This document shows positions 3,118-23,796 of a DNA stretch of 32,692 nucleotides, in pieces. Each line of letters starts with the position of its first letter. Positions within the stretch are counted from its first letter, which is position 1. The DNA is taken from IMG/VR virus record IMGVR_UViG_3300025701_001108, positions 1-32,692 of that record; one strand, given 5' to 3'. Under the pieces are notes generated by a model, which saw only the letters and a list, made by a program, of their open reading frames with translations, was not told the DNA's origin and did no database searches. The position numbers and the translations under genes were made by a program. The DNA is from a virus.

Positions 3118-3741
3118 ATGAGAATTAATTTAAACGATAGTGTTGGTTATTGGAAATACAATTTTGACACTTCCAATATAGGTGATATTGTGTTAGATAC
3201 ACTCAATGTAATCAACCAAGTCAACAGTCCACAAGATGGACATGGTTTATGGTTAGGTTCCAAATCTAAAGAGTGGGTTATATCACAAGACCTTGGAAAT
3301 GTGGGAGATATTATTTTAGATGGAATATCTAAGTGTGAACAGCTACATACCCAACCATATAACTTAGTAGAGATTGGTTGTTGGGTTAATGTTGTGAATA
3401 AATCAAAAACAAAACAAACTATCCGTGATAAAAAAACTAATCAGCTGATATATCACACACATACCGAAATTGAACAGAGACTTGGCAATTCATTACCCAA
3501 TTATACATTTGTGTTCTATGTCCAGATGCCAGACAATTTATCAAATGAGGATGGTAAGTTATTTATAAAAGATAAAGACGGTATTGAATTTGGGATTCTA
3601 CCAAAAGTAGGAGATTTGATTATATTAGAAGGGGACATTCCTCATGCTCCAGTTGATGCACCTAACTCTACTAAAGATAGAATTGTAATTGCAGGAAATG
3701 TGATATTTAAAAATATAAAAAAGTGCAAAACAATGATGTAA
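3118..3741 (+). CDS. 2OG-Fe(II) oxygenase-like protein (1)
   Basis: This is a 207-aa protein of the double-stranded beta-helix type. The metal/cosubstrate set is visible as H115-x-E117, H176 (IPHAP) and R188 (DRIVIAG). A frame upstream is open back to 3052, but ATG 3118 is preferred because it abuts the previous gene and the translation before it looks non-coding. The block FYVQMPDNL recurs in the next protein, so the two are tandem paralogs. The family hydroxylates or otherwise oxidises proteins, peptides or small molecules using 2-oxoglutarate and O2. The substrate is unknown. The HxE in place of HxD is less usual but known in the superfamily. Its C-terminus (KTMM) is a divergent form of the tail shared by the enzymes of this block. 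Confidence 0.75.
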   Translation: MRINLNDSVGYWKYNFDTSNIGDIVLDTLNVINQVNSPQDGHGLWLGSKSKEWVISQDLGNVGDIILDGISKCEQLHTQPYNLVEIGCWVNVVNKSKTKQTIRDKKTNQLIYHTHTEIEQRLGNSLPNYTFVFYVQMPDNLSNEDGKLFIKDKDGIEFGILPKVGDLIILEGDIPHAPVDAPNSTKDRIVIAGNVIFKNIKKCKTMM

Positions 3742-3763
3742 TGTTAATAACATACTATAAATT

Positions 3764-4357
3764 ATGGAAAAAATACATATAACAGATGATGTATATATTT
3801 TTAAAATATCTTCAATTGAATATAATCAAACTAAGTTAATTGAAGAATTAATTTTTAATTTGGATATAACTAAACAACAATCTCCTCAAAATTCTAAATA
3901 TCCCGGAATACAAAGTGATATTTTTATAATAGGGGGTGAGTTATCATATGTTAGAAATCAAATTATTGATATATTTGATAATCTCATATATAAATCAAAA
4001 AATACATATTCATATAAGAATTGGGTTTATTTAAGTAGTAAAGAAAACCCACATACAAACTATCACGAACACACCGATATGCTTGGATTGAAATCCAAGG
4101 GTGAATGGACATGGACTTTTTATGTTCAAATGCCAGATAACTTAAAAGGAAATGATGGTGAACTTATGTTTTCAGTAAATGGTGTAGTAAAATCCATTTT
4201 ACCAGAGGATGGGGATTTGTTTATATTCCCTGCGGAATTAAAACATATGCCAAACACCAACCAATCATCTACTAAAGATAGAATTGTTCTAGCAGGTACA
4301 ATGAGTAAAATGGATTTGAGTAAAAAATATATCAAGAGAACCAATACATTATTATGA
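3764..4357 (+). CDS. 2OG-Fe(II) oxygenase-like protein (2)
   Basis: This 197-aa paralog of the preceding protein shares FYVQMPDNL, the LPEDGDLFIFP strand pair and DRIVLAG. The putative iron ligands are H103-x-D105 (in YHEHTDM) and H161, with R173 to hold the 2-oxoglutarate carboxylate. This is a complete triad plus Arg, as expected for an active dioxygenase. Residues 1-90 are divergent and may shape the substrate site. It ends NTLL, matching the tail shared by its neighbours. The gene overlaps the next by four bases (ATGA), which implies translational coupling to a sulfotransferase-like gene. The substrate is unknown. Confidence 0.8.
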   Translation: MEKIHITDDVYIFKISSIEYNQTKLIEELIFNLDITKQQSPQNSKYPGIQSDIFIIGGELSYVRNQIIDIFDNLIYKSKNTYSYKNWVYLSSKENPHTNYHEHTDMLGLKSKGEWTWTFYVQMPDNLKGNDGELMFSVNGVVKSILPEDGDLFIFPAELKHMPNTNQSSTKDRIVLAGTMSKMDLSKKYIKRTNTLL

Positions 4358-4884
4358 AGATATTAGTTTTATCAAGTATAAGATGTGGTGGTGAGTACTT
4401 TACAAAATCGTTAGCAGATACATATAATTTAAAACATATACACGAACCAAATAAAATTCGTGATTTTGGTAACGATGTATGCGTCAAAATACATTTACAT
4501 GATTCAATTTCTGTTGCTGATGTGATAGAACATAGTAAGTTATATAATTATGTGTTTTTATTAGATAGAAAAAATAAAAAAGAACAACTAAAATCAGCGT
4601 ATGTTACATACAATATAACCAACCACCGAACTTCTAAGTGGATGTGGAAAGATGAATATCTTGAAATTAATAATTTAGATGTGAGTATGGAATATCTTCA
4701 AAATTGCATATCAACCATACATACTAAATTAGTTAAAATTTCCAATTTAATAACTAAAGAAATAATTTATTACGAGGATTTATATCACAATCCAAATTCG
4801 GTTAATTTAGATGGTCTATCGTTTAGTCCGGATTTATCTAAAAGATATTACGTAAAAAATACAGATGAAAATAAACTAATTTAA
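4354..4884 (+). CDS. Short sulfotransferase-like protein (1)
   Basis: This 176-aa protein has the two cofactor motifs of the sulfotransferase P-loop fold. An N-terminal phosphate loop (LSSIRCGGEYF, residues 5-15) matches the 5'-phosphosulfate-binding loop PRSGTT. A central strand (VFLLDRKNKKEQLKSAY) matches the 3'-phosphate-binding motif. Typical sulfotransferases are 250-300 aa, so this is a reduced form with an Ile replacing the usual Pro of the loop; activity is not certain. It is closely similar to the protein at 7002 (both have HEP after the loop, IYYEDLY/IYYDDLY and a final NKLI). Its ATG overlaps the preceding stop (ATGA) and its stop overlaps the next ATG (TAATG). If active it would transfer sulfate from PAPS to an unknown acceptor. 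Confidence 0.7.
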   Translation: MKILVLSSIRCGGEYFTKSLADTYNLKHIHEPNKIRDFGNDVCVKIHLHDSISVADVIEHSKLYNYVFLLDRKNKKEQLKSAYVTYNITNHRTSKWMWKDEYLEINNLDVSMEYLQNCISTIHTKLVKISNLITKEIIYYEDLYHNPNSVNLDGLSFSPDLSKRYYVKNTDENKLI

Positions 4885-5099
4885 TGGCTAATATGAATGC
4901 AACCCCACCCATTGTGGTGGTACATAAAGGACCAAGAAAAAACTCAAAAATATATATTGATATATTTACTAATAGTAGAGTTGATGATATTATAAATTCA
5001 AATAAACGAAAGCCATTAATTCCTAAACAAAATGAAATTTTGGATATGGGGGTTGGTAGTAACTTTGAAAAGAGGTATAGAAAAAAATATAAGTTGTGA
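4884..5099 (+). CDS. Small basic protein of unknown function (71 aa)
   Basis: I do not recognise this 71-residue protein. It is basic, with an N-terminal ATPPIVVVHKGPRK segment and a C-terminal RYRKKYKL, and has no cysteine or membrane segment. It overlaps its neighbours on both sides: its ATG shares a base with the upstream stop (TAATG), and its TGA lies inside the GTGA start overlap of the next gene. It is therefore part of the coupled string between two sulfotransferase-like genes. Its last residues do not clearly match the shared (T/K/S)-L-(L/I/F) tail, although it does end in Leu. Confidence 0.6.
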   Translation: MANMNATPPIVVVHKGPRKNSKIYIDIFTNSRVDDIINSNKRKPLIPKQNEILDMGVGSNFEKRYRKKYKL

Positions 5100-5608
5100 A
5101 AGTTTTAATAATATCATTACCAAGATGTGGTTCAACTTCTCTGATGAATAAGATATCTGAAGAAAGAAACTTATTATCATATATGGAACCATTTTCAATG
5201 GAAACTGAAAATCAACCTCCTTATGATTTTTGGAATGATAAAACAAATGTAATTGTAAAAACCTTAATAGGTCAACCTCAATTAAATGATTTGATAAAGT
5301 TCTATACAGAATTTTCAAAAAATTTTGATGAAGTAATATTATTATCTCGTAAAGATTTGATAGCAGTATCTGAGTCTTATGCATATTTAAAATGGAATGC
5401 TGAAAATGGGTTTAAGATGGATGACGATTATGAGTGGGAAGAAACTCCTAATTTAGCGAAAACCCACCAACTGATAACTAAACTTAACGATGATATTAAT
5501 CAGTTAGCTAAAATATTAAATTTAAAAGTAACCTATTATGAAGAATTATTTAATTCAAATTCATCAAAACGATTACGAAAAAATAAAAGAGTGAAAACAC
5601 TCATATAA
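5096..5608 (+). CDS. Short sulfotransferase-like protein (2)
   Basis: Of the three related proteins this 170-aa one has the clearest sulfotransferase signature. ISLPRCGSTSL (residues 5-15) is the 5'-phosphosulfate loop, and VILLSRKDLIAVSESYAY is a good 3'-phosphate-binding motif with Arg and the downstream Ser. The family moves sulfate from PAPS onto hydroxyls or amines of carbohydrates, lipids, peptides or small molecules. The start is GTG at 5096, overlapping the previous TGA by four bases, and translation probably re-initiates there. The protein ends KTLI, again the shared tail, with codons CTC ATA that differ from those of its neighbours. It is short for the family and the acceptor is unknown. 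Confidence 0.8.
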   Translation: MKVLIISLPRCGSTSLMNKISEERNLLSYMEPFSMETENQPPYDFWNDKTNVIVKTLIGQPQLNDLIKFYTEFSKNFDEVILLSRKDLIAVSESYAYLKWNAENGFKMDDDYEWEETPNLAKTHQLITKLNDDINQLAKILNLKVTYYEELFNSNSSKRLRKNKRVKTLI

Positions 5609-6990
5609 TGAAGTTACGTGAAAACCAAGTAGAACCAGTTGCGATTGGTGTAGAGTTTTTTAAAACTCCTAAGATGAAACCTTCGATTATCGTTGCCCCA
5701 ACGGCATTCGGTAAATCGATTGTTATAGCAGCTATTGCCAAAGAACTTGGTGAGAAACTTCTTGTACTCCAACCTTCCAAAGAATTATTAGAACAGAACT
5801 ATAACAAGTTTATCACTTTAGGTGGTGAGGCATCAATCTACTCTGCCTCAATGGGAAGTAAAGAGTTGGGTGATGTTACTTATGCAACCATTGGTTCTAT
5901 CATTAAGATAGCAGGTAAATTTAGAGAGTTAGGGGTAACTAAAATCATTATCGATGAATGTGATAGATACCCTCGTGCTAAATCAGGACAACTCAGGAGA
6001 TTCGTTGATGGGATGAAAGCAACTCATGTTCTTGGTTTAACCGCTACTCCTTTAAAGTTACAAACCAATATGGGAGATACTGGTCCTTATTCTAAGTTGG
6101 TAATGTTAACCAATAAAAGTAAACATGGAATGTTCTTTAAGTTCATCCTCCACGTTTCTCAGATTCAAGATATTGTTGAGTTAGGATATTGGACACCATT
6201 GGAATATCAATCATATGATTTCGATACGGGTGCTCTTGTTTACAATTCAAGTGGTGCTGAATATACCAATGATTCTATTGCTCGTTCATATGAGAACCAA
6301 AACATTGGTAATAAAATTGTAAAGAAGATTGCTGAATTACAAAATAGAAAATCAATTCTTGTTGCAGTACCAACCATAGAACAAGCAACAAATCTTGCTA
6401 AGAGAATTCCTTCTGCAGCAGTTGTACATGGTGGAACTCCAAAAGATGAACGAAGAAGAATCATCGAGGAATTCAGAAACCAACAAATCAGAGTTATTGT
6501 ACAAGTAAACGTACTAACAGTTGGATTCGATTACCCAGAATTAGATTGTTTGATTACAGGTAGACCAACCGCCTCTATCTCTTGGTGGTATCAATTCGTT
6601 GGTAGAGGAACACGTATCCATGATAACAAGAAAGATTGTTTAGTGGTAGATTTCGTAGGTTCAGTAGAGAAGTTTGGAAAAGTAGAAGCACTGTATTACA
6701 AACAAGATGGTGAAGAAAATTGGGAACTATATGGAGAGAATAAAAAACAAATTACTGGAATACCAATGCATGAAATCGGTATTCATTTGGAAGGTGGTAT
6801 CAATCTTTCTGAAAAACGAAATGAAGAAGGTGAGATAGAAAAGGTTTATATGACCTTTGGTAAATACTCAGGCAAACCTGTTGCATCTATACCACCTTAT
6901 TATAGAAAGTGGTTATTGGATAATATAACATGGGGACCGTGGAATATTAAAATAAAAAATGAAATAGAACGATTACATAATTTAAAATAA
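5608..6990 (+). CDS. uvsW: UvsW-type superfamily 2 helicase with C-terminal FGKYxGK domain
   Basis: This 460-aa protein is an SF2 helicase of the T4 UvsW/RadD/XPB-like type. Motif I is APTAFGKS (30-37), motif II DECD (116-119), motif III TATP (145-148) and motif VI QFVGRGTR (329-336), with GFDYPELDCLI before it. T4 UvsW unwinds branched DNA and R-loops and switches the phage from origin-based to recombination-based replication. Residues about 415-440 (MTFGKYSGKPVASIPPYYRKW) resemble the small DUF3820 domain, an unusual addition. Codon use looks less A/T-biased than in the flanking accessory genes, consistent with a core gene among acquired ones. Its final RLHNLK lacks the shared tail. Its last 30 coding bases are repeated at 7617-7646. 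Confidence 0.88.
   Translation: MKLRENQVEPVAIGVEFFKTPKMKPSIIVAPTAFGKSIVIAAIAKELGEKLLVLQPSKELLEQNYNKFITLGGEASIYSASMGSKELGDVTYATIGSIIKIAGKFRELGVTKIIIDECDRYPRAKSGQLRRFVDGMKATHVLGLTATPLKLQTNMGDTGPYSKLVMLTNKSKHGMFFKFILHVSQIQDIVELGYWTPLEYQSYDFDTGALVYNSSGAEYTNDSIARSYENQNIGNKIVKKIAELQNRKSILVAVPTIEQATNLAKRIPSAAVVHGGTPKDERRRIIEEFRNQQIRVIVQVNVLTVGFDYPELDCLITGRPTASISWWYQFVGRGTRIHDNKKDCLVVDFVGSVEKFGKVEALYYKQDGEENWELYGENKKQITGIPMHEIGIHLEGGINLSEKRNEEGEIEKVYMTFGKYSGKPVASIPPYYRKWLLDNITWGPWNIKIKNEIERLHNLK
6961..6990 (+). repeat. Direct repeat copy 1 (end of helicase gene)
   Basis: These last 30 bases of the helicase gene, stop included, are repeated at 7617-7646 with three mismatches. The two copies bracket the third sulfotransferase-like gene. 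Confidence 0.8.
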
Positions 6991-7001
6991 GATACTTATT
7001 T

Positions 7002-7592
7002 ATGAAAATTTTAACTATTGCATCACCCCGCTCTGGTGGTAAATATTTTACAGAATATCTTGCCAATAGGTACAATTTAACACATTATCACGAACCTGAG
7101 ATGAATGGTAGGTTAGATAATATTTTATCAAAAAATAATATATCTGTTAAGCTAGTCACTTCTCATTTATATTACTATTATCATTTGGAAATGGGAATAT
7201 CAATTGATGAATCTATTAGTATTATTTGTGATAGAGTTAGTAAATTTAAGTTTGATAAGGTATATCTATTAGATAGATATCATACAGATGAATACATAGA
7301 AGCACTAATTAATTTAAAATTAAGACAGGAAAATAATCATGTTGATTGGGTATATAATGAACAATTTAAAAAAAAACATGTTACTAAATCTAACATAGAA
7401 TATTTTAAAGGATATGCTGAAGAAAGTACTAGATGGATTAATATGATATCTGATAAGTTAAGTATAGATGTAATCTATTACGATGACTTATATTACAAAT
7501 CAGATACAATTGATTTACAAGGACTAAAATTTATTCCAGATTTAAGTAAGAGATTACGAAAAGAATTACTAGATTCAAATAAATTGATTTAA
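7002..7592 (+). CDS. Short sulfotransferase-like protein (3)
   Basis: This 196-aa protein resembles the one at 4354. It has a phosphate loop IASPRSGGKYF (5-15), nearer the PRSGTT consensus than that of its paralog, then a HEPE motif. A strand VYLLDRYHTDEY occupies the 3'-phosphate-binding position, and IYYDDLYY lies near the C-terminus. The Ser normally found downstream of the Arg in the 3' motif is not obvious. It ends NKLI, identical to the 4354 protein but with different codons (AAATTGATT against AAACTAATT). It sits between two copies of the helicase 3' end, which suggests it was inserted as a unit. The next frame starts immediately after its stop. The sulfate acceptor, if any, is unknown. 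Confidence 0.7.
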   Translation: MKILTIASPRSGGKYFTEYLANRYNLTHYHEPEMNGRLDNILSKNNISVKLVTSHLYYYYHLEMGISIDESISIICDRVSKFKFDKVYLLDRYHTDEYIEALINLKLRQENNHVDWVYNEQFKKKHVTKSNIEYFKGYAEESTRWINMISDKLSIDVIYYDDLYYKSDTIDLQGLKFIPDLSKRLRKELLDSNKLI

Positions 7593-7646
7593 ATGGATAT
7601 TAGAAAATATAAAAACGAAATCGAAAGATTACATAATTTAAAATAG
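7593..7646 (+). pseudogene. 17-codon remnant of the helicase C-terminus
   Basis: The frame starts at an ATG directly after the sulfotransferase stop and encodes 17 residues ending KNEIERLHNLK. The last 11 are identical to the helicase C-terminus at 6958-6990. It abuts the next gene's ATG at 7647 with no spacer. The simplest reading is that the helicase's original 3' junction was duplicated when the 7002 gene was inserted. It could still be translated as a coupling peptide, but its length argues against an independent function. Confidence 0.6.
7617..7646 (+). repeat. Direct repeat copy 2 of the helicase gene end
   Basis: This copy matches 27 of the 30 bases at 6961-6990. Two of the mismatches within the frame are synonymous, so the peptide is unchanged, and the third alters the stop from TAA to TAG. 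Confidence 0.8.
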
Positions 7647-8246
7647 ATGATAGATAGAATTTATGTATTTGATGATATTATAGATAAAGAATCTCAGAAT
7701 ATTTTAGAAGAATATTTTTTAACTAATGATTCATTGTTTAAAAAAGATAACAATATTCAATATTTTGGTGATGAGGTTTATATGCCACAATCGGTTATAG
7801 TACCAACGAAGTTGGATAGTAATATTGATATTATTTTAAAAACTATTGAAGATACTGCTATAAAAAAAATTGGTAAAACAATTTTAAAAAACTATCGATA
7901 TAAGATAAATAAACTAGAAGTAGTTGATAATGATTTTGATGATATTATGAGTTTACATATAGATAGGTATGAGGAACATATATCTATTGTATATTATGTT
8001 AATGATACAGATGGAGATACTTGTCTGTATGAGATAGACCCATCTGATTTAAAAAATTGGCAACCTTTAGTGAGGGGTAGAAAATTTGAAAAATTTAAAT
8101 TTAAACAACAAGTTTCTCCCAAAAAAGGTAGAGTTGTGATATTTAATGGATTACTACCACACCATTCATCATACCCAACAATTACTGATAGGTATGTTGT
8201 AAACTTCAATACTGTTATTGACACAAAACCAACATCTTTATTTTAA
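7647..8246 (+). CDS. 2OG-Fe(II) oxygenase (3)
   Basis: This 199-aa protein has a complete iron/2-oxoglutarate set. H104-x-D106 lies in LHIDRYEEH, the distal His is H172 or H173 in LLPHHSSYP, and R182 lies in TDRYVVNFN. The order and spacing match small prolyl-hydroxylase-like dioxygenases found in many marine phages. It would use 2-oxoglutarate and O2 to oxidise an unknown substrate. It starts right after the helicase-tail remnant and ends TSLF, a member of the shared tail set. The next oxygenase starts four bases after its stop. The sequence is clearly divergent from the first oxygenase pair (3118 and 3764), so the block holds at least two oxygenase subfamilies. Confidence 0.85.
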   Translation: MIDRIYVFDDIIDKESQNILEEYFLTNDSLFKKDNNIQYFGDEVYMPQSVIVPTKLDSNIDIILKTIEDTAIKKIGKTILKNYRYKINKLEVVDNDFDDIMSLHIDRYEEHISIVYYVNDTDGDTCLYEIDPSDLKNWQPLVRGRKFEKFKFKQQVSPKKGRVVIFNGLLPHHSSYPTITDRYVVNFNTVIDTKPTSLF

Positions 8247-8250
8247 TAAT

Positions 8251-8802
8251 ATGTATCAACACTTTACCATACCAAATTTTCTAACCACATCAGAATGTAC
8301 TTCTATATTATCAAAATGTAAAAAAGAACTTACGTTAAAAAATGCAACAGTTCGTGATGGTGAAGTAAATTTCAAATCAAGAAAATCTTCGGTAGCATTT
8401 ATAGATGATTTGGGTTTTTTAAATAATAGATTAGAAACTATACTAATAGATTCAGTTAAAGTAAAGGGATTTTCCGTATCTGGATTACAACCATTCCAGT
8501 TTACTGAATATACTATGGGTGAATATTATAATTGGCATAGAGATAGTGATATAAATAATCCAAAGTTTTCTAATAGATTCTACTCAACGGTTATTCAATT
8601 AAACGATGAATATACTGATGGTGAATTACAATTAAATATCGATGATAATGAAATAACATTAGAACGTGGATTAGGTACACTATATATGTTTCCATCATAT
8701 ACACTCCATCAAGTAAAGCCTATAACAAGTGGGGTTAGGTACTCTCTTGTAAATTGGGTCAAGTTGGTAGAAAATAAAAACGAAAAGAAATCATTACTAT
8801 GA
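8251..8802 (+). CDS. PKHD-type 2OG-Fe(II) hydroxylase (4)
   Basis: This 183-aa protein looks like a prolyl-4-hydroxylase/PKHD-type dioxygenase. The iron ligands are H96-x-D98 in YNWHRDSD and H153 in YTLHQV, and R163 in GVRYSLVNW is the 2-oxoglutarate Arg. The stretch PFQFTEYTMGEYYNWHRD and the strand STVIQLNDEYTDGELQL are typical of the family. An upstream in-frame ATG at 8218 lies inside the previous gene, so ATG 8251, four bases after that stop, is chosen; the protein then begins YQHFTIPNFL, as PKHD proteins do. It ends KKSLL (shared tail) and overlaps the halogenase start by four bases. The substrate is unknown. Confidence 0.88.
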   Translation: MYQHFTIPNFLTTSECTSILSKCKKELTLKNATVRDGEVNFKSRKSSVAFIDDLGFLNNRLETILIDSVKVKGFSVSGLQPFQFTEYTMGEYYNWHRDSDINNPKFSNRFYSTVIQLNDEYTDGELQLNIDDNEITLERGLGTLYMFPSYTLHQVKPITSGVRYSLVNWVKLVENKNEKKSLL

Positions 8803-10028
8803 TGAATATAGTTGTTATTGGTGGAGGTACTGCCGGTTGGTTATCTGCATTATTTTTTAATCGCAAAATTAAAAATATAAATTTAACTTTAATTGAAAGT
8901 AAATCAATTGGAGTAATTGGTGTCGGTGAGGGTACTACACCTAATATAGTACCATTTCTTAAAAAGTTGGGTATCAATGAAACCGATTTTATTACTAAAA
9001 CAAAAGCTACTAAAAAGGTGGGAATAGCATTTGAAGGTTGGCCGGGAGATGATTCATCCTTTAATCATGACTTTCACCAAGATTCAAAATTAAGTTATGC
9101 ATATCATTTTGATAATAATAAAATTGGAAATTACTTTAAAGAATTAGGATTATCACGTGGTATCAATCATATTGAAGGTGATGTAATTGGATTTGATAAA
9201 AATGGTGATGATATAAATAAAATACATCTAAAAGATGGTTCATCAATACAATCTGATTTTATAATAGATTGTAGTGGATTCAAACGTTTGGTAATTGGAG
9301 ATGAATTAAATAGTGAATGGATTTCTCACACAGACCACTTAACTCTTAATTCTGCAATACCATTTAGAATACCACTAACCGATTCCGAAGAATATACCAT
9401 AGATAGTAAAACACGAACTCGTGCTATTTCTATGAAGTATGGGTGGATGTGGATGGTTCCTCTACAAGATAGATGGGGATGTGGTTATGTATTTGATGAT
9501 GGATATATAAATCAGGAAAATGCTAAACTTGAAGTAGAAGAGTATCTTAAAACAAAAATAGAAGTAAATAGAAAAATTCAATTTGAATCTGGCTATTTTA
9601 AAGATGTTTGGATTGGTAATTCAGTTGCAGTGGGATTAAGTAGTGGATTCTTCGAACCACTCGAGGCAACATCTATAATGACAGTTATTGCTCAATTAAA
9701 TAATTTACGTAAAACCAAATTCAATAAAGAATTACGAAGTTGGTATAATGAATCTATACAAAAATTCAATAACCAAGTTTATAATTTTATAAAATATCAC
9801 TATTTATGTGAACGAGAAGATACTGATTTTTGGAAAGAGTATAAATCCCATGAACTTCCAGAAACCTTATCTAAGTTACTTACTCATGATTTAAAACTAA
9901 AATACTTTGATAACCCTAAGATAGCAGAAATTTTTGATATAGATGATACTGAAATAATATTTGATTCTTATAATTATTCTACTGTTGGTTTAGGTAATTT
10001 CAAACAAATTACAAAATCTTTATTTTGA
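8799..10028 (+). CDS. Flavin-dependent (tryptophan-type) halogenase
   Basis: This 409-aa protein belongs to the FADH2-dependent halogenase family (PrnA/RebH type). The FAD-binding GGGTAGW is at residues 8-14. A GVGEGTTPN segment and a Lys-containing TKKVGIAF (K73 is the likely catalytic Lys that forms the haloamine) follow. The diagnostic GWMWMVP (215-221) is present, as is FFEPLEATSI (281-292), with E289 in the position of the active-site Glu. Characterised enzymes are about 500-540 aa, so this one is shorter at its C-terminus. They chlorinate or brominate electron-rich aromatics, often Trp, and need a flavin reductase; none is encoded in this window. Similar genes are known in marine cyanophages. 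It ends KSLF (shared tail) and is coupled to both neighbours. A monooxygenase relative is the alternative. Confidence 0.88.
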   Translation: MMNIVVIGGGTAGWLSALFFNRKIKNINLTLIESKSIGVIGVGEGTTPNIVPFLKKLGINETDFITKTKATKKVGIAFEGWPGDDSSFNHDFHQDSKLSYAYHFDNNKIGNYFKELGLSRGINHIEGDVIGFDKNGDDINKIHLKDGSSIQSDFIIDCSGFKRLVIGDELNSEWISHTDHLTLNSAIPFRIPLTDSEEYTIDSKTRTRAISMKYGWMWMVPLQDRWGCGYVFDDGYINQENAKLEVEEYLKTKIEVNRKIQFESGYFKDVWIGNSVAVGLSSGFFEPLEATSIMTVIAQLNNLRKTKFNKELRSWYNESIQKFNNQVYNFIKYHYLCEREDTDFWKEYKSHELPETLSKLLTHDLKLKYFDNPKIAEIFDIDDTEIIFDSYNYSTVGLGNFKQITKSLF

Positions 10029-10315
10029 TGATAAATATTAAAGATATATTGGATTCTTGGATAAAATCATTTAACCCAACCGATGATGAAATATCACGTG
10101 CAAATGATAGATATGATGTATGTAGTTCATGCCCATCTCGGCAAGAATTAATTAGAAATAAAAAATGGACTCTAATATGTGGTGAGTGTGGATGTCCATT
10201 AAGTAAAAAAGTATATTCATCCGTTGTAAACCCGTGTCCTCTTGAAAAATGGGAAAATGTAGATAAAAAACATAATCTTAATACAAGTATTAAGAAAACA
10301 AGTACCTTATTTTAA
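10028..10315 (+). CDS. Small zinc-ribbon-like protein (DUF6171-like)
   Basis: This 95-aa protein carries two CxxC-type clusters (C32/C35 and C51/C54/C56) and a late C70 in NPCPLEKW. The CGECGCPLSKK and CPLEKWE blocks match a small Cys-rich family common in tailed phages and probably bind one or two zinc ions. A TTG at 10025 opens the same frame, but ATG 10028, sharing a base with the halogenase TGA, is preferred. The role is unknown; it could be a scaffold or adaptor for the enzymes before it. It ends STLF, a clear case of the shared C-terminal tail on a non-enzyme. It is the last gene before a late-type promoter and the Hint protein. Confidence 0.78.
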   Translation: MINIKDILDSWIKSFNPTDDEISRANDRYDVCSSCPSRQELIRNKKWTLICGECGCPLSKKVYSSVVNPCPLEKWENVDKKHNLNTSIKKTSTLF

Positions 10316-10361: not shown

Positions 10362-12314
10362 ATGAAGGCTACAATACTAGGAACTGATTTACTTCAAAGT
10401 GGTGATTCGGTAAAAATTTTAGAAATTAATACTAATGCTGCTATCTACAATAGAGGTGCAGAATTTTTAGATTACGATGCACTATTTAACGTACTCATAT
10501 CTAACAATATAACTGAATTTCACTTTATATATGTAGATGAAAAGTCACAGGCACCAAATGGAGCTGTGGAATTTGTGTTTGAAGATAAAATAAAAGAAAA
10601 ATGTACCGAGTTGGGTATATCATATACTCCACACGTAGTGCCAGGCGGCTCTGTTACGGTTCCTGCAATAGAAGATACAGATAATAAATTCATCTTACGT
10701 CAAGCATATGATACATCTGCACTTGTAGATTCAACATACTGTGCTGATAAATTTGAATTCTTTTCTTTAATGAGTGGTTCGTCATACATACCTGATACTT
10801 ACTTTTCATCGGATGATTTATCACTCGATGGGTTTAATTCATTGAATATAAATGATTCCCAATATCCTAACTCAGTACAAAAGGCTAGATATCCACAATA
10901 TGATAGAGAGGCGTTACCTCGTTTATCAAAATATACCACAACCGAACAATTAGCTTCTGCAAAATCTAATTTAGATTCTGATATTTTAATACAAGAATTT
11001 ATTCAAGATGACTCAAATGTAGTTGATGGGTACTGGAGTGTAATTAGAAGTATTGATATTATCTATGGTTCTAATTTAGATACCATTAGTTTGGGTGGAT
11101 ATACTCACTCTTCAGTAGTACCATTAACATTTTGTGATAATGAGTTTTACGAAAATGGAGTTGATTTAACTAAAAAGAGTAGAAGTAAATTCTTAAATCA
11201 AAATTCAAGCTTGGAAGTTGGGACGATACGTTATCACACGGATGAAGAATCTGATATTTTAATGTTTGATGGGAGTATATCTAACGTTACTCAAATACAA
11301 GAAGGTGATATAATTAAAACTGCCAACTTTGATTGGATAGTCGGTGGTAGTGGTGAAGAACATGATCCACGTACCTCATATACATCAGTAGACACTATAT
11401 CTGGTTCTTTATCATACGTTTCATCATCGTTGATTTCATCCGAATCACAAGAAGTTGAAAGCGTGTTTGTTCAAATAACGTTGGATAATGGTGAAGTTTG
11501 GACAGATACACTATCTACATCATATGTAATAGAGCGTTCTGGTTCACTTGATACTAACTTCGAATTTGTTAACAAATTATTAGTAGGTGATAAAATTATT
11601 ACCATTAATAAAACTACCAACAATGTTTCCAAGAAAGAAATTACATCATTAGATGTAGTTTGGGATAGTGTTAAAATTTATAACTTAGACTTTGAACCAT
11701 ACGATTATTTCATGGTAGATGTAAATAATGATGAATATGCATTGATGCATAATGTATGTACGTACTGTTATACATCTTGGGCACCATGTGGTAATTATTA
11801 TTGTGATAGTGGTTGTCCACCATGTGGTTTTAACTTTGGTGGTAGTGGATGCTTTGTAGCTGGAACTCAAGTTACACTATCAAATGGAGATACTAAAAAT
11901 ATTGAAGATATTGTTGTTGGTGATGTTGTTGTTTCCTATAATGAAGAAAGTGGAATTCAAGAACATAATGAAGTAACCGATTTAAACCAACCAATTCATA
12001 ATGATTTAGTTAAATATACATTCTCAAACGGAACAGAAATAACATCTACATATGACCACCCATTCTATGTAAATGATTTAGTATTAGCATCATATTCACC
12101 TGAATTGACTAATGATGTATATGATTTACCAACAGAAGTTACTAGAATAAAAGTAGGTGATTTCGTCTATCCACTTGATGGTGATGTAGATGTTACAATT
12201 ACTTCAATTGAAGAATTGATATCAGAAGATACACAAACTTATATATTTGGTGTTGAGAATAATCAGAACTTCTATGCCAATGGAATATTAGTACATAATA
12301 AAAAACAATATTAA
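10362..12314 (+). CDS. Tandem-Hint-domain protein with a six-Cys segment between the Hint modules
   Basis: This is a 650-aa protein. Residues 1-280 are not confidently recognised; IQEF and ILRQAYD stretches faintly recall ATP-grasp proteins. Residues about 285-464 form a degenerate Hint domain: MFDGSISNVTQIQEGD, a B-block-like ITLDNGEVWTDTLST lacking the His, a VGDKIITI block, and a terminal His463-Asn464. Residues 465-496 are Cys/Gly/aromatic-rich with six Cys (466, 469, 476, 481, 485, 488). Residues 497-646 are a canonical Hint: C497 in CFVAGT, T563-x-x-H566, VGD, and terminal VH645-N646. Only KKQY follows, so there is no Ser/Thr/Cys at +1 and no real C-extein. This looks like a bacterial-intein-like (BIL) self-cleaving domain rather than a splicing intein. 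The late-type promoter suggests late expression, perhaps as a virion or surface protein. Confidence 0.85.
   Translation: MKATILGTDLLQSGDSVKILEINTNAAIYNRGAEFLDYDALFNVLISNNITEFHFIYVDEKSQAPNGAVEFVFEDKIKEKCTELGISYTPHVVPGGSVTVPAIEDTDNKFILRQAYDTSALVDSTYCADKFEFFSLMSGSSYIPDTYFSSDDLSLDGFNSLNINDSQYPNSVQKARYPQYDREALPRLSKYTTTEQLASAKSNLDSDILIQEFIQDDSNVVDGYWSVIRSIDIIYGSNLDTISLGGYTHSSVVPLTFCDNEFYENGVDLTKKSRSKFLNQNSSLEVGTIRYHTDEESDILMFDGSISNVTQIQEGDIIKTANFDWIVGGSGEEHDPRTSYTSVDTISGSLSYVSSSLISSESQEVESVFVQITLDNGEVWTDTLSTSYVIERSGSLDTNFEFVNKLLVGDKIITINKTTNNVSKKEITSLDVVWDSVKIYNLDFEPYDYFMVDVNNDEYALMHNVCTYCYTSWAPCGNYYCDSGCPPCGFNFGGSGCFVAGTQVTLSNGDTKNIEDIVVGDVVVSYNEESGIQEHNEVTDLNQPIHNDLVKYTFSNGTEITSTYDHPFYVNDLVLASYSPELTNDVYDLPTEVTRIKVGDFVYPLDGDVDVTITSIEELISEDTQTYIFGVENNQNFYANGILVHNKKQY
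11214..11753 (+). other. Degenerate first Hint domain (residues about 285-464)
   Basis: This segment aligns by eye with the canonical Hint that follows: hydrophobic-DG-x4-I-x2-I-x2-GD near the start, a strand-NG-strand B block, VGDKIIT, then a final HN. The B-block His is Thr386 and no clear N-terminal Cys is present, so N-terminal acyl-shift chemistry is doubtful. The C-terminal His-Asn pair needed for Asn cyclisation is kept. The N-terminal boundary is approximate. Confidence 0.6.
11754..11849 (+). other. Six-Cys segment sandwiched between Hint domains (residues 465-496)
   Basis: These 32 residues contain Cys at 466, 469, 476, 481, 485 and 488 (CxxC-x6-C-x4-C-x3-CxxC), with one Trp, four Tyr and a Gly-rich end. 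The segment begins immediately after the first Hint's His-Asn and stops immediately before the second Hint's catalytic Cys. It may be a zinc- or disulfide-knuckle linker, or a peptide released by cleavage at both borders. Confidence 0.65.
11850..12299 (+). other. Canonical Hint (BIL-type) domain (residues 497-646)
   Basis: The blocks are in order: C497 in CFVAGTQV; NGDTKNIEDIVVGDVV; the B block TSTYDHPF with Thr563 and His566; RIKVGDFV; and the terminal ANGILVHN. All residues for N-terminal acyl shift and for C-terminal Asn cyclisation are present. The protein ends four residues later without a +1 nucleophile, so cleavage rather than splicing is expected. Confidence 0.88.
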
Positions 12315-16211: not shown

Positions 16212-17918
16212 ATGAGTTATATATTAGGAATATCATGTGGATATCATGATTCAGCTGCAGCCTTAATTAAAGATGGAAAAGTTTTAGGTGCATGTGAAGA
16301 AGAAAGATTCACAGGTATCAAACATGATTCATCCTTCCCTACCAATACTATCAATTGGTTATATAAAGAATTCAACGTAGATGGTAGAGAAATTACCGAT
16401 GTTGTATTTTATGATAATCCTAAATTAAAATTAGATAGAATTGAGAAATCAACTAAACGTGGTCCTAAATCAGAAAAAGAACATCGTTTAGAAATTATCC
16501 AACGTAATAAAGAAAAGTTCGAAGAAATCGAACAACAGATACTTGATATCACTCATCCTTATGTAGATATTGAATATGGTGACCATCATTTATCTCACGT
16601 TGCATATTCCTACTATACTTCTCCTTTCCAAAAGGCCTCTATTCTTTCAGTAGATGGCGTAGGAGAGTGGGAAACAACTTCTCTATACTATGGAGAAGGA
16701 AATAAATTATTCCCTCTACAATCGATTAATTTCCCTCATTCATTGGGGATGTTATATTCTGCATTTACTGCCTTTCTTGGATTCAAACCAAACGAAGGAG
16801 AGTATAAGGTAATGGGATTAGCTCCTTATGGAAATCACGAAACTTATTTAAAACAATTTCAGAAACTTTACACTACTACTAAAGACGGTGGTTTTGAATT
16901 GGATATGAAATATTTTACATACGATTGGTCTGATGACCATATGTTTAATGAAAAGTTATCTTCATTATTTGATTTACCAAATAGATTTCCAGAAGAAGAA
17001 CTTACACAAGAACACAAAGATTTAGCAGCAACCTTACAACATCAATACGAATTTCTTTTATTTCGTTTGATTGATAAGTTATATGTATCACGTTCCAATC
17101 ACAACTTATGTTTAAGTGGTGGATGTGCATACAACGGAACGGCTAATGGGAAAATCTTAGAGAAATCTTTATACAAACAATTATGGATTCCATCAGCACC
17201 ATCTGATGCTGGTTCTGCTATTGGTTGTGCATTAGAATTCTTTTATAGAACCAATCCTAACTCACCACGAATTGATAATGTTAATCCTTACTTAGGTCCT
17301 TCTTATTCACGTGAAAATATCGAATCTGCATTGAAAGAAATGGAGAAAGAAGTTTATAGTGTTTATAAAATTGATTCTGAATTAATTCCTATTATATCTA
17401 AACAAATTGCTGAAGGTAATGTAATTGGTTGGTTCGAAGGAAAAATGGAATTTGGTTCTCGTGCATTAGGTAATCGTTCGATACTTGCAAATCCATGTGA
17501 CCCACAAATGAAGGCAAGAGTAAATCGTGTGATTAAAAAGAGAGAAGGATTCAGACCTTTTGCACCAATGGTAAAGTTAGAAGAACAAACTCGTTATTTC
17601 GAATACGATAAAACGGTTCCTTATATGAACCAAGTGGTAAAGGTAAAAGAAGAACATCAAAAGTATTTACCAGCGATTACTCACGTAGATGGTTCGGCTA
17701 GAATACAATCAGTATCTAACCAACACCATAGAAGAATGTATAAGTTACTACAACAACTCCAAGCGGATAATGGTTATCCAATGGTTCTTAACACTTCATT
17801 CAACTTGAAAGACCAGACAATGGTATTAGACCCACTAACGGCTATTAAAACTTTCTTAGATTGTGAAATGGATACCTTAGTTCTTGGTAATTATATCGTA
17901 AAGAAGAAGATTAGATAA
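16212..17918 (+). CDS. NodU/CmcH-family carbamoyltransferase
   Basis: This 568-aa protein has both halves of the family. The N-terminal Kae1-like domain has ILGISCGYHDSAAALI, EEERF, the metal-binding HHLSHVA (about 124-130), SVDGVGEW and GEYKVMGLAPYG. The C-terminal YrdC-like domain has GWFEGKMEFGSRALGNRSI and LNTSFNLKDQ. These enzymes use carbamoyl phosphate and ATP to carbamoylate a hydroxyl of an antibiotic, Nod factor or, as proposed for some phages, a modified DNA base. The length is normal and the motifs are intact, so it is probably active. Similar genes are frequent in marine T4-like phages. It has its own late-type promoter and sits directly before the structural genes. Its substrate, possibly a virion or cell-surface sugar or a tailored product of the accessory block, is unknown. 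Confidence 0.93.
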   Translation: MSYILGISCGYHDSAAALIKDGKVLGACEEERFTGIKHDSSFPTNTINWLYKEFNVDGREITDVVFYDNPKLKLDRIEKSTKRGPKSEKEHRLEIIQRNKEKFEEIEQQILDITHPYVDIEYGDHHLSHVAYSYYTSPFQKASILSVDGVGEWETTSLYYGEGNKLFPLQSINFPHSLGMLYSAFTAFLGFKPNEGEYKVMGLAPYGNHETYLKQFQKLYTTTKDGGFELDMKYFTYDWSDDHMFNEKLSSLFDLPNRFPEEELTQEHKDLAATLQHQYEFLLFRLIDKLYVSRSNHNLCLSGGCAYNGTANGKILEKSLYKQLWIPSAPSDAGSAIGCALEFFYRTNPNSPRIDNVNPYLGPSYSRENIESALKEMEKEVYSVYKIDSELIPIISKQIAEGNVIGWFEGKMEFGSRALGNRSILANPCDPQMKARVNRVIKKREGFRPFAPMVKLEEQTRYFEYDKTVPYMNQVVKVKEEHQKYLPAITHVDGSARIQSVSNQHHRRMYKLLQQLQADNGYPMVLNTSFNLKDQTMVLDPLTAIKTFLDCEMDTLVLGNYIVKKKIR

Positions 17919-20693: not shown

Positions 20694-21332
20694 ATGGATT
20701 CCAAGAAATTAGCAAAACTAATTAAAGTAATCGTAGAAGCTGAAGTAGCTAAAAAACACGAACAATTCTTAACTAAAACCTTTCCAAAGATTTTAGAAGA
20801 GCAAGTGAACCTTAAATTAAAATCACATTTAAAGGAGTTGAAGGGAGGTGTATCTGCCCCTCTAACTCAAGTGGTTGAGGAGGTAGACCCATTCGAAGCA
20901 GCTAATCAAGTTCTACAACAAGAAAGAACACAAGTTCAAGAACAAAGAAAATTCACTAAGAACCCAGTTCTTAATGATATACTGAATCAAACACAACCAT
21001 TTAGTTCAGCACAAAGAAGTGGTGGACAAGTTGGTAGTGGTGGTGCATCGGTATTAGATAGATTACCACAACAACAAATTCAAGAAAATACACACATACC
21101 ATCTTACATGGATGCCGAACCAGATATTGACCAAACAATTAATATGGGTTCATCATTTGGTGCAGGTGGAACTGATGCTCTAAGGGCACAGATGGCTCAT
21201 AAAATGGGATATGGTGATGTAAGTTCACAAGGTGCACCTAAAAAAGGATTAGGTGTATCAACTGGGTTAGCAGCTTTAGATAGAGTATTGAATAGAGATA
21301 ATTCCGAACTTGTTAAAAAGTTCAAGAGATAG
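20694..21332 (+). CDS. Unknown Gln-rich structural-region protein (212 aa)
   Basis: This protein has a Lys-rich helical N-terminus (MDSKKLAKLIKVIVEAEVAKKHEQF), a Gln/Glu coiled segment (about 65-90) and a long low-complexity Gly/Ser/Gln region (about 100-165). It ends with a helical GVSTGLAALDRVLNRDNSELVKKFKR. The pattern of helix, disordered centre and terminal helix suggests a linker or assembly factor rather than an enzyme. It lies directly before gp25. Its stop overlaps the AGGAG ribosome binding site of gp25. No family name is offered. Confidence 0.7.
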   Translation: MDSKKLAKLIKVIVEAEVAKKHEQFLTKTFPKILEEQVNLKLKSHLKELKGGVSAPLTQVVEEVDPFEAANQVLQQERTQVQEQRKFTKNPVLNDILNQTQPFSSAQRSGGQVGSGGASVLDRLPQQQIQENTHIPSYMDAEPDIDQTINMGSSFGAGGTDALRAQMAHKMGYGDVSSQGAPKKGLGVSTGLAALDRVLNRDNSELVKKFKR

Positions 21333-21342
21333 GAGAGTATAA

Positions 21343-21774
21343 GTGGCTTACGTAATTGGTAGAAAAGTTGTAAAGGATACTGAATCGGATTTTGATTCTT
21401 TTGCATATGGAATTGCATCTCCTACCAAACGTGGTGCGGTTATGTTTGAACAAACTTTTACTTCCTATGATGCTGCTAAGAGTAATCTTAGAAATTTAAT
21501 GTTAACTGCTCGTGGTGAACGAGTAATGCAACCTGAGTTTGGTACTGGGTTACATGAACTATTATTCGAACCATTTGATGATACGTATGAGAGTAGGTTA
21601 CAAGAAATGATAACTCAATCTGTAAATTTTTGGTTACCATATATTACCATAGAATCAATTGAAGTTGATATGAGTGATGAAATGAAAGATAGACATACAG
21701 CAAATGTTAGCATACAATTCACAGTTGGTAATGATATAGAAACACAAGAAATAACCTTTACAGTACAGGGATAA
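21343..21774 (+). CDS. 25: Baseplate wedge protein gp25
   Basis: This 143-aa protein belongs to the GPW/gp25 family. The core RNLMLTARGERVMQPEFGTGLHELLFEP is the family hallmark, including the RGERVMxPxFG loop, followed by an IESIEVD strand and a final ITFTVQG. In T4, gp25 is a core component of the baseplate wedge and lies next to the tube-sheath junction. The length is close to the family norm (about 130 aa). The start is GTG at 21343, supported by AGGAGAG at 21331-21337 and by the protein beginning AYVIG. The next gene is gp6, the same order as in other T4-like phages. Confidence 0.93.
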   Translation: MAYVIGRKVVKDTESDFDSFAYGIASPTKRGAVMFEQTFTSYDAAKSNLRNLMLTARGERVMQPEFGTGLHELLFEPFDDTYESRLQEMITQSVNFWLPYITIESIEVDMSDEMKDRHTANVSIQFTVGNDIETQEITFTVQG

Positions 21775-21780
21775 TACAAT

Positions 21781-23796
21781 ATGGCACTTAATAGTACAAA
21801 TAAAAAAAATAAAGGTAGGGATATAAAGTATCTTAATAAAGATTTTGGACAATTCAGACAAAATCTAATTGAATACTCTAAAACATATTTTCCACAAACC
21901 TATACTGATTTTAACGAATCTTCACCTGGTATGATGTTCATAGAAATGGCATCATATCTTGGTGATGTTCTTGGATATTATATTGATGATACTTTAAAAG
22001 AATCATTAATGACAACTGCAGAAGATAAAGCTAACGTAATGGCTTTATCACAATATTTAGGATATAAACCAAAAGTAACTTCACCTGCAGTTGTTAAATT
22101 AGCAATTTATCAAAGAGTTGGTGTATTAAATGCACAAACAAATCCAGAACCCAATACTGATTATCTATTAAGAATTAAAGAAGGAATGAGTGTAGTTTCC
22201 AATACGGGAGTTTCATTTAGAACAACTGAATTGGTAGACTTTTCAGATGATACTGATAGAGAAGTAACCATATATAATCGTGATAGTCAAGGATACCCTG
22301 CAAATTATCTTATTAAGAAATATGTAAATGCTATTTCTGCAGAATTAAGAAGTGTTACAAAAACATTTACAAGTGCTGAACAGTTTTCTAAAATAGAAAT
22401 TGGAGATAACAATGTAATTCAAATTTACGATGTTCGCGACACAAGTGGTAACAAATGGTATGAAGTACCATATCTTGCACAAGAAATGGTTTATGTTGAT
22501 TATGCCAATACAGAACAATATGATAAAGATTTAGCACAATTTAAAGATTCGGTTCCAAGTATTTTAAAATTAACAAAAACATCAAGAAGATTTACGGTTC
22601 AAGTAAATGAAGATAATACTACATCATTAGTATTTGGTGGAGGTAACTCTACTACATCAGATGAAACATTAATACCTAATTTTAAAAATGTTGGATTAGG
22701 ATTGAATTCATCTATTGATAATCTTGGAGCATCATTCGACCCTTCTAATTTTTTAAAAACCAAATCATATGGTCAGACACCAGCAAATACAACATTAACA
22801 GTTAGATATTTAGTTGGCGGTGGTGTTGAATCAAATGTAAGTGCGGGTGAATTAACAACGATAGATAGTATAGAATATGACGAAGATACTACTATTTTTG
22901 ATGCGGATGAATTATCAGTATATAACTCATACAAATCATCAATTGCAGTTGAAAACGAAGAACCAGCAACGGGCGGTAGAGGTGCGGAAACGATTGATGA
23001 AATTAGAGAAAACTCTTTGGCTAACTTTGGTTCACAAAACAGAGCTGTAACTCGTAAGGATTATCAGGTACGAGCATTATCATTACCGGCAAAATATGGT
23101 GGTATTGCAAAAGTATATTGTGCACCCGATGGGGAGTTGGATAATAATTCACCTTCATCGATTCTAACAGACCCAAACTCTTTACAACAATTTACTGAGT
23201 TAGTATTATCATTAAAAGAAAAAGAAGGTATAACTGAAAAAGAAATACAGAATCAAGTAAATACATTCTTATCAGGAAAACAATCTGATTCTAAAGAGAA
23301 GAATAATCCATTTGCAATTAACTTATATGTTCTTGGGTATGATTCTACTAAAAAATTATCTACACTTAATCAAGCGATTAAAGAAAACCTAAAAACTTAC
23401 TTAGGTGAATATCGATTGTTAACTGATGGTGTAAATTTATTAAATGGATTTATTATCAATATTGGTGTTGATTTTGAAATTCGTGTATATGGTGGGTATA
23501 ATAAACGAGAAGTTCTTGTTAAGTGTATATCTGAAGTACAAAATTACTTTAACATTGATAATTGGACGTTCAATATGCCAATAAACCTTTCCGAATTAGA
23601 ATTAATTATTGCAGGAGTTGAGGGGGTTCAATCTGTACCTAAGTGTGTAGTTGTAAATAATTGCAAAGGTAGTTATTCAAATATATCTTATAATATTGAA
23701 GCTGCAACTAAAAATAAAATGGTATATCCTTCATTAGACCCTTCGGTGTTTGAAGTGAAGTATCCAAATAAAGATATAAAAGGGAGGGTTGTTTAA
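21781..23796 (+). CDS. 6: Baseplate wedge protein gp6 (baseplate J-like)
   Basis: This 671-aa protein matches the gp6/baseplate-J group. It has an N-terminal YLNKDFGQFRQNLIEYSKTYFPQ and a DFNESSPGMMFIEMASYLGDVLGYYID helix block, then a long beta region. The diagnostic GGRGAETIDEIRENS…RAVTRKDY lies at about residues 398-430. The C-terminal part (about 500-671) carries repeated alpha/beta elements such as VLVKCISEVQNYFNID. gp6 dimers form the inner ring of the baseplate and drive the hexagon-to-star change. The length is close to T4 gp6 (660 aa). The stop overlaps the next gene's ATG by one base. Confidence 0.92.
   Translation: MALNSTNKKNKGRDIKYLNKDFGQFRQNLIEYSKTYFPQTYTDFNESSPGMMFIEMASYLGDVLGYYIDDTLKESLMTTAEDKANVMALSQYLGYKPKVTSPAVVKLAIYQRVGVLNAQTNPEPNTDYLLRIKEGMSVVSNTGVSFRTTELVDFSDDTDREVTIYNRDSQGYPANYLIKKYVNAISAELRSVTKTFTSAEQFSKIEIGDNNVIQIYDVRDTSGNKWYEVPYLAQEMVYVDYANTEQYDKDLAQFKDSVPSILKLTKTSRRFTVQVNEDNTTSLVFGGGNSTTSDETLIPNFKNVGLGLNSSIDNLGASFDPSNFLKTKSYGQTPANTTLTVRYLVGGGVESNVSAGELTTIDSIEYDEDTTIFDADELSVYNSYKSSIAVENEEPATGGRGAETIDEIRENSLANFGSQNRAVTRKDYQVRALSLPAKYGGIAKVYCAPDGELDNNSPSSILTDPNSLQQFTELVLSLKEKEGITEKEIQNQVNTFLSGKQSDSKEKNNPFAINLYVLGYDSTKKLSTLNQAIKENLKTYLGEYRLLTDGVNLLNGFIINIGVDFEIRVYGGYNKREVLVKCISEVQNYFNIDNWTFNMPINLSELELIIAGVEGVQSVPKCVVVNNCKGSYSNISYNIEAATKNKMVYPSLDPSVFEVKYPNKDIKGRVV

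Follow-up and report, generated by a model that had tools for sequence, protein, structure and literature searches.

A 32.7-kb fragment from an uncultured phage (IMG/VR record IMGVR_UViG_3300025701_001108, positions 1 to 32,692, hereafter the window) encodes a block of enzymes that end in a common four-residue tail, and the same tail was found in many other uncultured phages on proteins of many folds, among them enzymes that modify proteins or sugars. The tail is a tag at the free C-terminus, carried on a variable linker and selected at the protein level; it is found chiefly on one class of tailoring enzymes and shows genetic linkage to a Hint-domain protein, here called HINT (10362-12314, plus strand). 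The best reading, a tentative one, is docking: the tail would bring a variable set of tailoring enzymes to a common partner, most likely HINT or a structure made from it.

Selection of the tail at the protein level

The consensus of the tagged proteins was K-[KSTN]-[LI]-[ILF]-COOH, with Lys at position -4, Lys, Thr, Ser or Asn at -3, Leu or Ile at -2 and Ile, Leu or Phe at -1; a typical tail reads Lys-Thr-Leu-Ile. For enrichment, the consensus proposed from the window in an initial annotation, (N/K/T/S)-(T/K/S)-(L/M)-(L/I/F/M)-COOH, was counted in loci collected via HINT that had not been used for defining the motif, using 60%-identity representatives and excluding the window and contig L003, which was found via the halogenase. 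It was present in 51/466 genes within eight genes of HINT and in 6/839 genes far away, the latter drawn from four contigs (odds ratio 17, p = 8e-18). With the last 30 residues shuffled, 0.9 matches were expected against the 51 observed, and the loose pattern was matched by about 1% of internal four-residue windows, so chance and composition were rejected. The annotation had asked whether the tail might be no more frequent here than in other genes, and both the shuffled and the background comparisons answer that it is far commoner near HINT.

Synonymous codons within the tail were close to background, and in tag-bearing families the tail was frequent whether the next gene overlapped, was close, was far off or was missing. 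A DNA-level signal or translation coupling was rejected on these grounds, in agreement with the earlier statement that the tail is not a repeated DNA element. In tagged 2-oxoglutarate (2OG) oxygenase-like proteins, 12-20 residues of varying sequence lie between the last conserved motif and the C-terminus, and the alignment of the sulfotransferase-like proteins likewise has a variable linker with the tail fixed at the C-terminus. Background codons, the irrelevance of spacing and the variable linkers before a fixed tail together indicate selection at the protein level. The tail has the properties of a docking or sorting tag, namely the same free-C-terminal motif on unrelated folds above background, on a variable linker outside the fold.

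Proteins of uncultured phages were grouped by BLAST, and a cluster was counted as tagged when at least 30% of its members carried the tail. The 43 clusters obtained had no detected homology to one another, by which common ancestry alone was rejected. They comprised 2OG oxygenases, radical S-adenosylmethionine (SAM) enzymes, sulfotransferase-like proteins, SET proteins, SGNH hydrolases, a halogenase, FkbM and other methyltransferases, short-chain dehydrogenase-like proteins, a glycosyltransferase family 25 member, a SIS-domain protein and several nameless families. Most of the ordinary phage gene families in the same loci had no tagged member, and a few had one or a few. Loci found via the 2OG and sulfotransferase-like families held up to about a dozen tailed genes each; L293 (209-11056) has fifteen genes within its first 11 kb whose products end in two hydrophobic residues, almost always in the form of the tag. 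L003 carries a block similar to that of the window, with the tails TKFI, TKLL, KNIL, KRLL, KTLI and others. The annotation had proposed docking, localisation or degradation as the function, and its premise of a common tail on different folds stands, with the addition that in related phages the tail is concentrated in one functional enzyme class.

Homologues inside and outside these phages differed. The tail was present on 41/45 distinct radical SAM proteins of viral contigs and on 1/89 of their homologues in bacterial genomes (p = 1e-28). HTVC008M encodes 2OG and halogenase proteins with other endings, halogenases of two further records also end differently, and cyanophage homologues are likewise without the tail. 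The suggestion that homologues in sister phages might lack it therefore failed for carriers of the system (L003, L100, L105, L121 and others) and held outside it, as a tag tied to the system predicts. A search of phage isolates with a single radical SAM protein and a single tagged 2OG protein gave no match. Two radical SAM loci (L296, L297) had no tags in the flanks examined, and HINT lies elsewhere on their contigs. Genes resembling S-adenosylmethionine synthetase, recognised by eye from the N-terminal sequence, lie near tagged genes in the sister phages G019 (78014-78979) and G038 (36240-37202) and could serve as suppliers to the radical SAM enzymes and methyltransferases.

The tagged block of the window

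All nine tails named in the annotation were read from the DNA at the gene ends, and all genes of the block are on the plus strand. The first two encode a 2OG-oxygenase-like protein of phrog_81 (3118-3741; tail KTMM, 3727-3738) and its 2OG-Fe(II) oxygenase-like paralogue (3764-4357; NTLL, 4343-4354). Three sulfotransferase-like proteins follow at 4354-4884 (NKLI, 4870-4881; a weak fold assignment), 5096-5608 (KTLI, 5594-5605) and 7002-7592 (NKLI, 7578-7589). They are followed by a 2OG-Fe(II) oxygenase-like protein of phrog_274 (7647-8246; TSLF, 8232-8243), a 2OG-Fe(II) oxygenase of the prolyl-4-hydroxylase fold (8251-8802; KSLL, 8788-8799), a flavin-dependent, tryptophan-type halogenase (8799-10028; KSLF, 10014-10025) and a small zinc-ribbon-like protein of phrog_13558 (10025-10315; STLF, 10301-10312), in which the zinc ribbon was assigned from the Cys pattern, with no Pfam match. 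A 71-residue protein (4884-5099, ending KYKL) and a DEAD/ResIII-type helicase (5608-6990, ending HNLK) lie within the block and are untailed, as is the homologue of each in a sister phage; these two and HINT, which ends KKQY, fall outside the motif, as had been noted. The proposed consensus was present in 9/11 called genes of the block and in 0/24 genes outside the block and the HINT gene (exact test, p = 2e-6, entered as 9/12 block genes with the HINT gene counted).

The nine carriers do not count as nine independent folds. Alignment places all three sulfotransferase-like proteins in a single family, with E 1e-19 between two of them, and the first two 2OG proteins are homologues as well, which leaves about six independent families in the window. 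The sulfotransferase identity of the trio is tentative, with a weak match (NodH sulfotransferase, E 0.08) and with Sulfotransfer_4 matched by 2/26 family members. For the 8251-8802 protein, PF13640 was matched, H96, H153 and R163 were near-invariant, and the double-stranded beta-helix with the HxD...H and Arg of 2OG-Fe(II) oxygenases was found. Its model (mean predicted local distance difference test score 85) has a confident core and a low-confidence end, with the last nine residues outside the core, and was matched by Foldseek to prolyl-4-hydroxylases (E 1e-10). As these are protein hydroxylases, the match fits a protein substrate.

The baseplate wedge protein of the window has about 40% identity to its counterparts in Microcystis phage Mel-JY01, in Flavobacterium phage immuto and in an uncultured phage. 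Just before the block lie an iron-sulphur cluster assembly protein (1521-1862) and the UV endonuclease UvdE (1924-2826). A NodU-type carbamoyltransferase of the window (16212-17918) ends KKIR; its relatives from sister phages have KKIL or KKIF at that place, near the form of the tag.

HINT and the possible partners of the tail

HINT is the neighbour of the tagged enzymes in related phages and the proposed hub or substrate. Its N-terminal domain spans about 290 residues and is followed by a degenerate Hint domain and, in most cases, by at least one active-looking Hint domain. In the window, matches to PF14890 and PF01079 were obtained, together with the N-terminal Cys and C-terminal His-Asn of Hint domains, and the active-looking domain lies at 11850-12299 (Cys497, TSTYDH and a VHN near the C-terminus). 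Between the degenerate and the active-looking domains lies a 32-residue segment at 11754-11849 (VCTYCYTSWAPCGNYYCDSGCPPCGFNFGGSG), a candidate modified segment with many Cys, Tyr, Gly and Pro residues and a single Trp; no counterpart was seen in the other HINT proteins of the comparison, and in most of them just a few residues stand at this place. In L003 the HINT relative (7632-9269) ends in a tail-fibre-type S74 chaperone domain in place of an active Hint domain.

The N-terminal domain, aligned and modelled over 10362-11231, has near-invariant D9, E21, N23, K174 and R229 and an ATP-grasp-like motif at its N-terminus that is suggestive only. Its best matches in BFVD were ATP-grasp-type enzymes, weak at E 0.02 and 0.06, and the permuted window sequence gave E 0.005 against RimK, a result below the cut-off and from one of six sequences. 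The order of the conserved residues resembles that of an ATP-grasp fold whose end has been shifted to the start, which makes a circular permutation possible. The domain was not found in phage isolates (tblastn, one N-terminal domain as query) or in bacterial genomes.

One or more tagged genes were present within ten genes of HINT at 44 of the 45 distinct loci (groups at 80% identity), and the gene directly after HINT ends in two hydrophobic residues at 80% of loci, against 10.6% far away. Small loci (L133, L171, L183) consist of HINT and one or two tagged enzymes only, and in a 168-kb sister contig without the HINT N-terminal domain tags were at chance level. Docking to a common partner is the best reading of a tail that marks one enzyme class, stands at the free C-terminus behind a variable linker and has a gene neighbourhood centred on one protein. 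We infer that the tag binds something; HINT would be its likeliest partner and the HINT product the thing modified. The tag would bring hydroxylases, sulfotransferase-like proteins, radical SAM enzymes, SET and FkbM methyltransferases, the halogenase, SGNH hydrolases and others to one partner, and the recruited enzymes would then modify HINT or a structure built from it. The annotation had named the zinc-ribbon protein among possible partners, which is unlikely, as its homologue in L003 is untailed and the family occurs in only 7 of about 100 loci; HINT is the better candidate on genetic grounds.

Several results weigh against HINT as the partner. Sister contigs G004, G019 and G038 carry tags and the HINT N-terminal domain was not found in them, all three being apparently incomplete; in G038 small stand-alone Hint-like open reading frames lie beside tagged genes (3594-4082, 21194-21625 and 21607-22074, in L252 and L253). 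Radical SAM loci without HINT in their 10-kb flanks were still tagged, at 0.28 per gene against 0.41, and the ubiquity of HINT is partly by construction, because the HINT loci were collected via HINT. No peptide-binding domain of known kind was recognised in HINT, and its N-terminal domain has no convincing solved relative by sequence or fold and no fold match in the PDB at E<=1e-3.

A more elaborate form of docking on HINT, which we consider rather unlikely, would be a modular tailoring system in which up to about fifteen interchangeable tagged enzymes dock on HINT and decorate it, the Hint domains then releasing or conjugating the product. The segment at 11754-11849, with its one Trp, several Tyr and Pro, would in the window be the candidate for halogenation, sulfation and hydroxylation.

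That the tail is a docking tag with a partner other than HINT, such as a virion or glycan-assembly protein, another phage protein or a host protein, is a real if lesser possibility. The tagged genes of the sister fragments in which the N-terminal domain was not found agree with it, as do the glycan-synthesis genes that adjoin several loci. It also agrees with tagged genes distant from HINT in large contigs, among them the tagged SGNH and sulfotransferase-like genes of a 326-kb contig, which indicate that the tag acts in trans and is no operon effect. The concentration of tagged genes beside HINT at nearly every distinct locus speaks against such a partner, and so does the result for the PDZ domain, the obvious receptor of C-terminal peptides, which was found in 0/15 records (PF13180, PF00595), host genomes being outside this search.

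A signal for packaging or localisation into the virion, a membrane or a compartment, comparable to the SKL of peroxisomal enzymes, is doubtful. Such signals usually look like this, a single short C-terminal tag shared by soluble enzymes that are unrelated, and the S74 chaperone domain of the L003 HINT agrees with one, but neither a compartment nor a capsid receptor was identified, and most ordinary phage families of the same loci are without a tagged member. Bacterial proteases can read hydrophobic C-termini, so the tail could mark the enzymes for host proteases as a degron or stability signal; this is very unlikely, as a degron would not need the concentration in one HINT-linked class of tailoring enzymes, and the basic or polar residues at -4 and -3 are also selected. 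An artefact of composition, shared ancestry or translation coupling at gene ends, to which the AT-rich genomes, the many overlapping genes and some tagged paralogues might point, is refuted by the codon, spacing, enrichment and radical SAM comparisons, which with the shuffled expectation, the rarity of internal matches, the separate clusters and the tails on genes with no gene after them leave it a negligible probability.

Comparison with known systems

Among the titles and abstracts of the open-access papers searched, none describes a signal of this form; subscription papers lay outside that search, and an earlier description is possible. The four-residue tail is apparently an undescribed 'address label'. 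If the docking reading is true, it would be a general label for phage enzymes, by which members of a large tailoring system hidden in uncultured phages, many of them without annotation, could be picked from sequence alone. It would also help account for the clustering of 2OG oxygenases, radical SAM enzymes, sulfotransferases and halogenases in some phage genomes, and would give laboratory work a small, portable docking tag to try.

Peroxisomal targeting signal 1 is the C-terminal SKL read by PEX5. Like it, the phage tail is a very short free-C-terminal tag, on an exposed linker, of many enzymes of unrelated folds; the peroxisomal signal, however, is a eukaryotic import signal of other sequence and length, and we know of no PEX5-like receptor or compartment in phages. 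The ligands of PDZ domains end in S/T-x-hydrophobic and share with the phage tail the free carboxylate, the hydrophobic last residue and often a Ser or Thr two residues before it, whereas the phage tail ends in two hydrophobic residues and prefers Lys at -4, with Lys or Asn at -3 about as common as Thr or Ser. Encapsulin cargo-loading peptides and the encapsulation peptides of microcompartments sit at protein termini and take enzymes to a protein shell. The phage tail is similar as a terminal peptide that would gather enzymes, but those peptides are longer and bind a shell protein; an encapsulin or shell was neither looked for nor seen here. In the biosynthesis of ribosomally synthesised and post-translationally modified peptides, tailoring enzymes meet their precursor via a leader peptide. 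The phage loci resemble these pathways in the hydroxylases, radical SAM enzymes, methyltransferases, halogenase and possibly ATP-grasp-like domain gathered around one linked protein; they differ in that the phage recognition element would sit on the enzymes and not on the substrate, and the phage system is known here from its enzyme set and the linked HINT.

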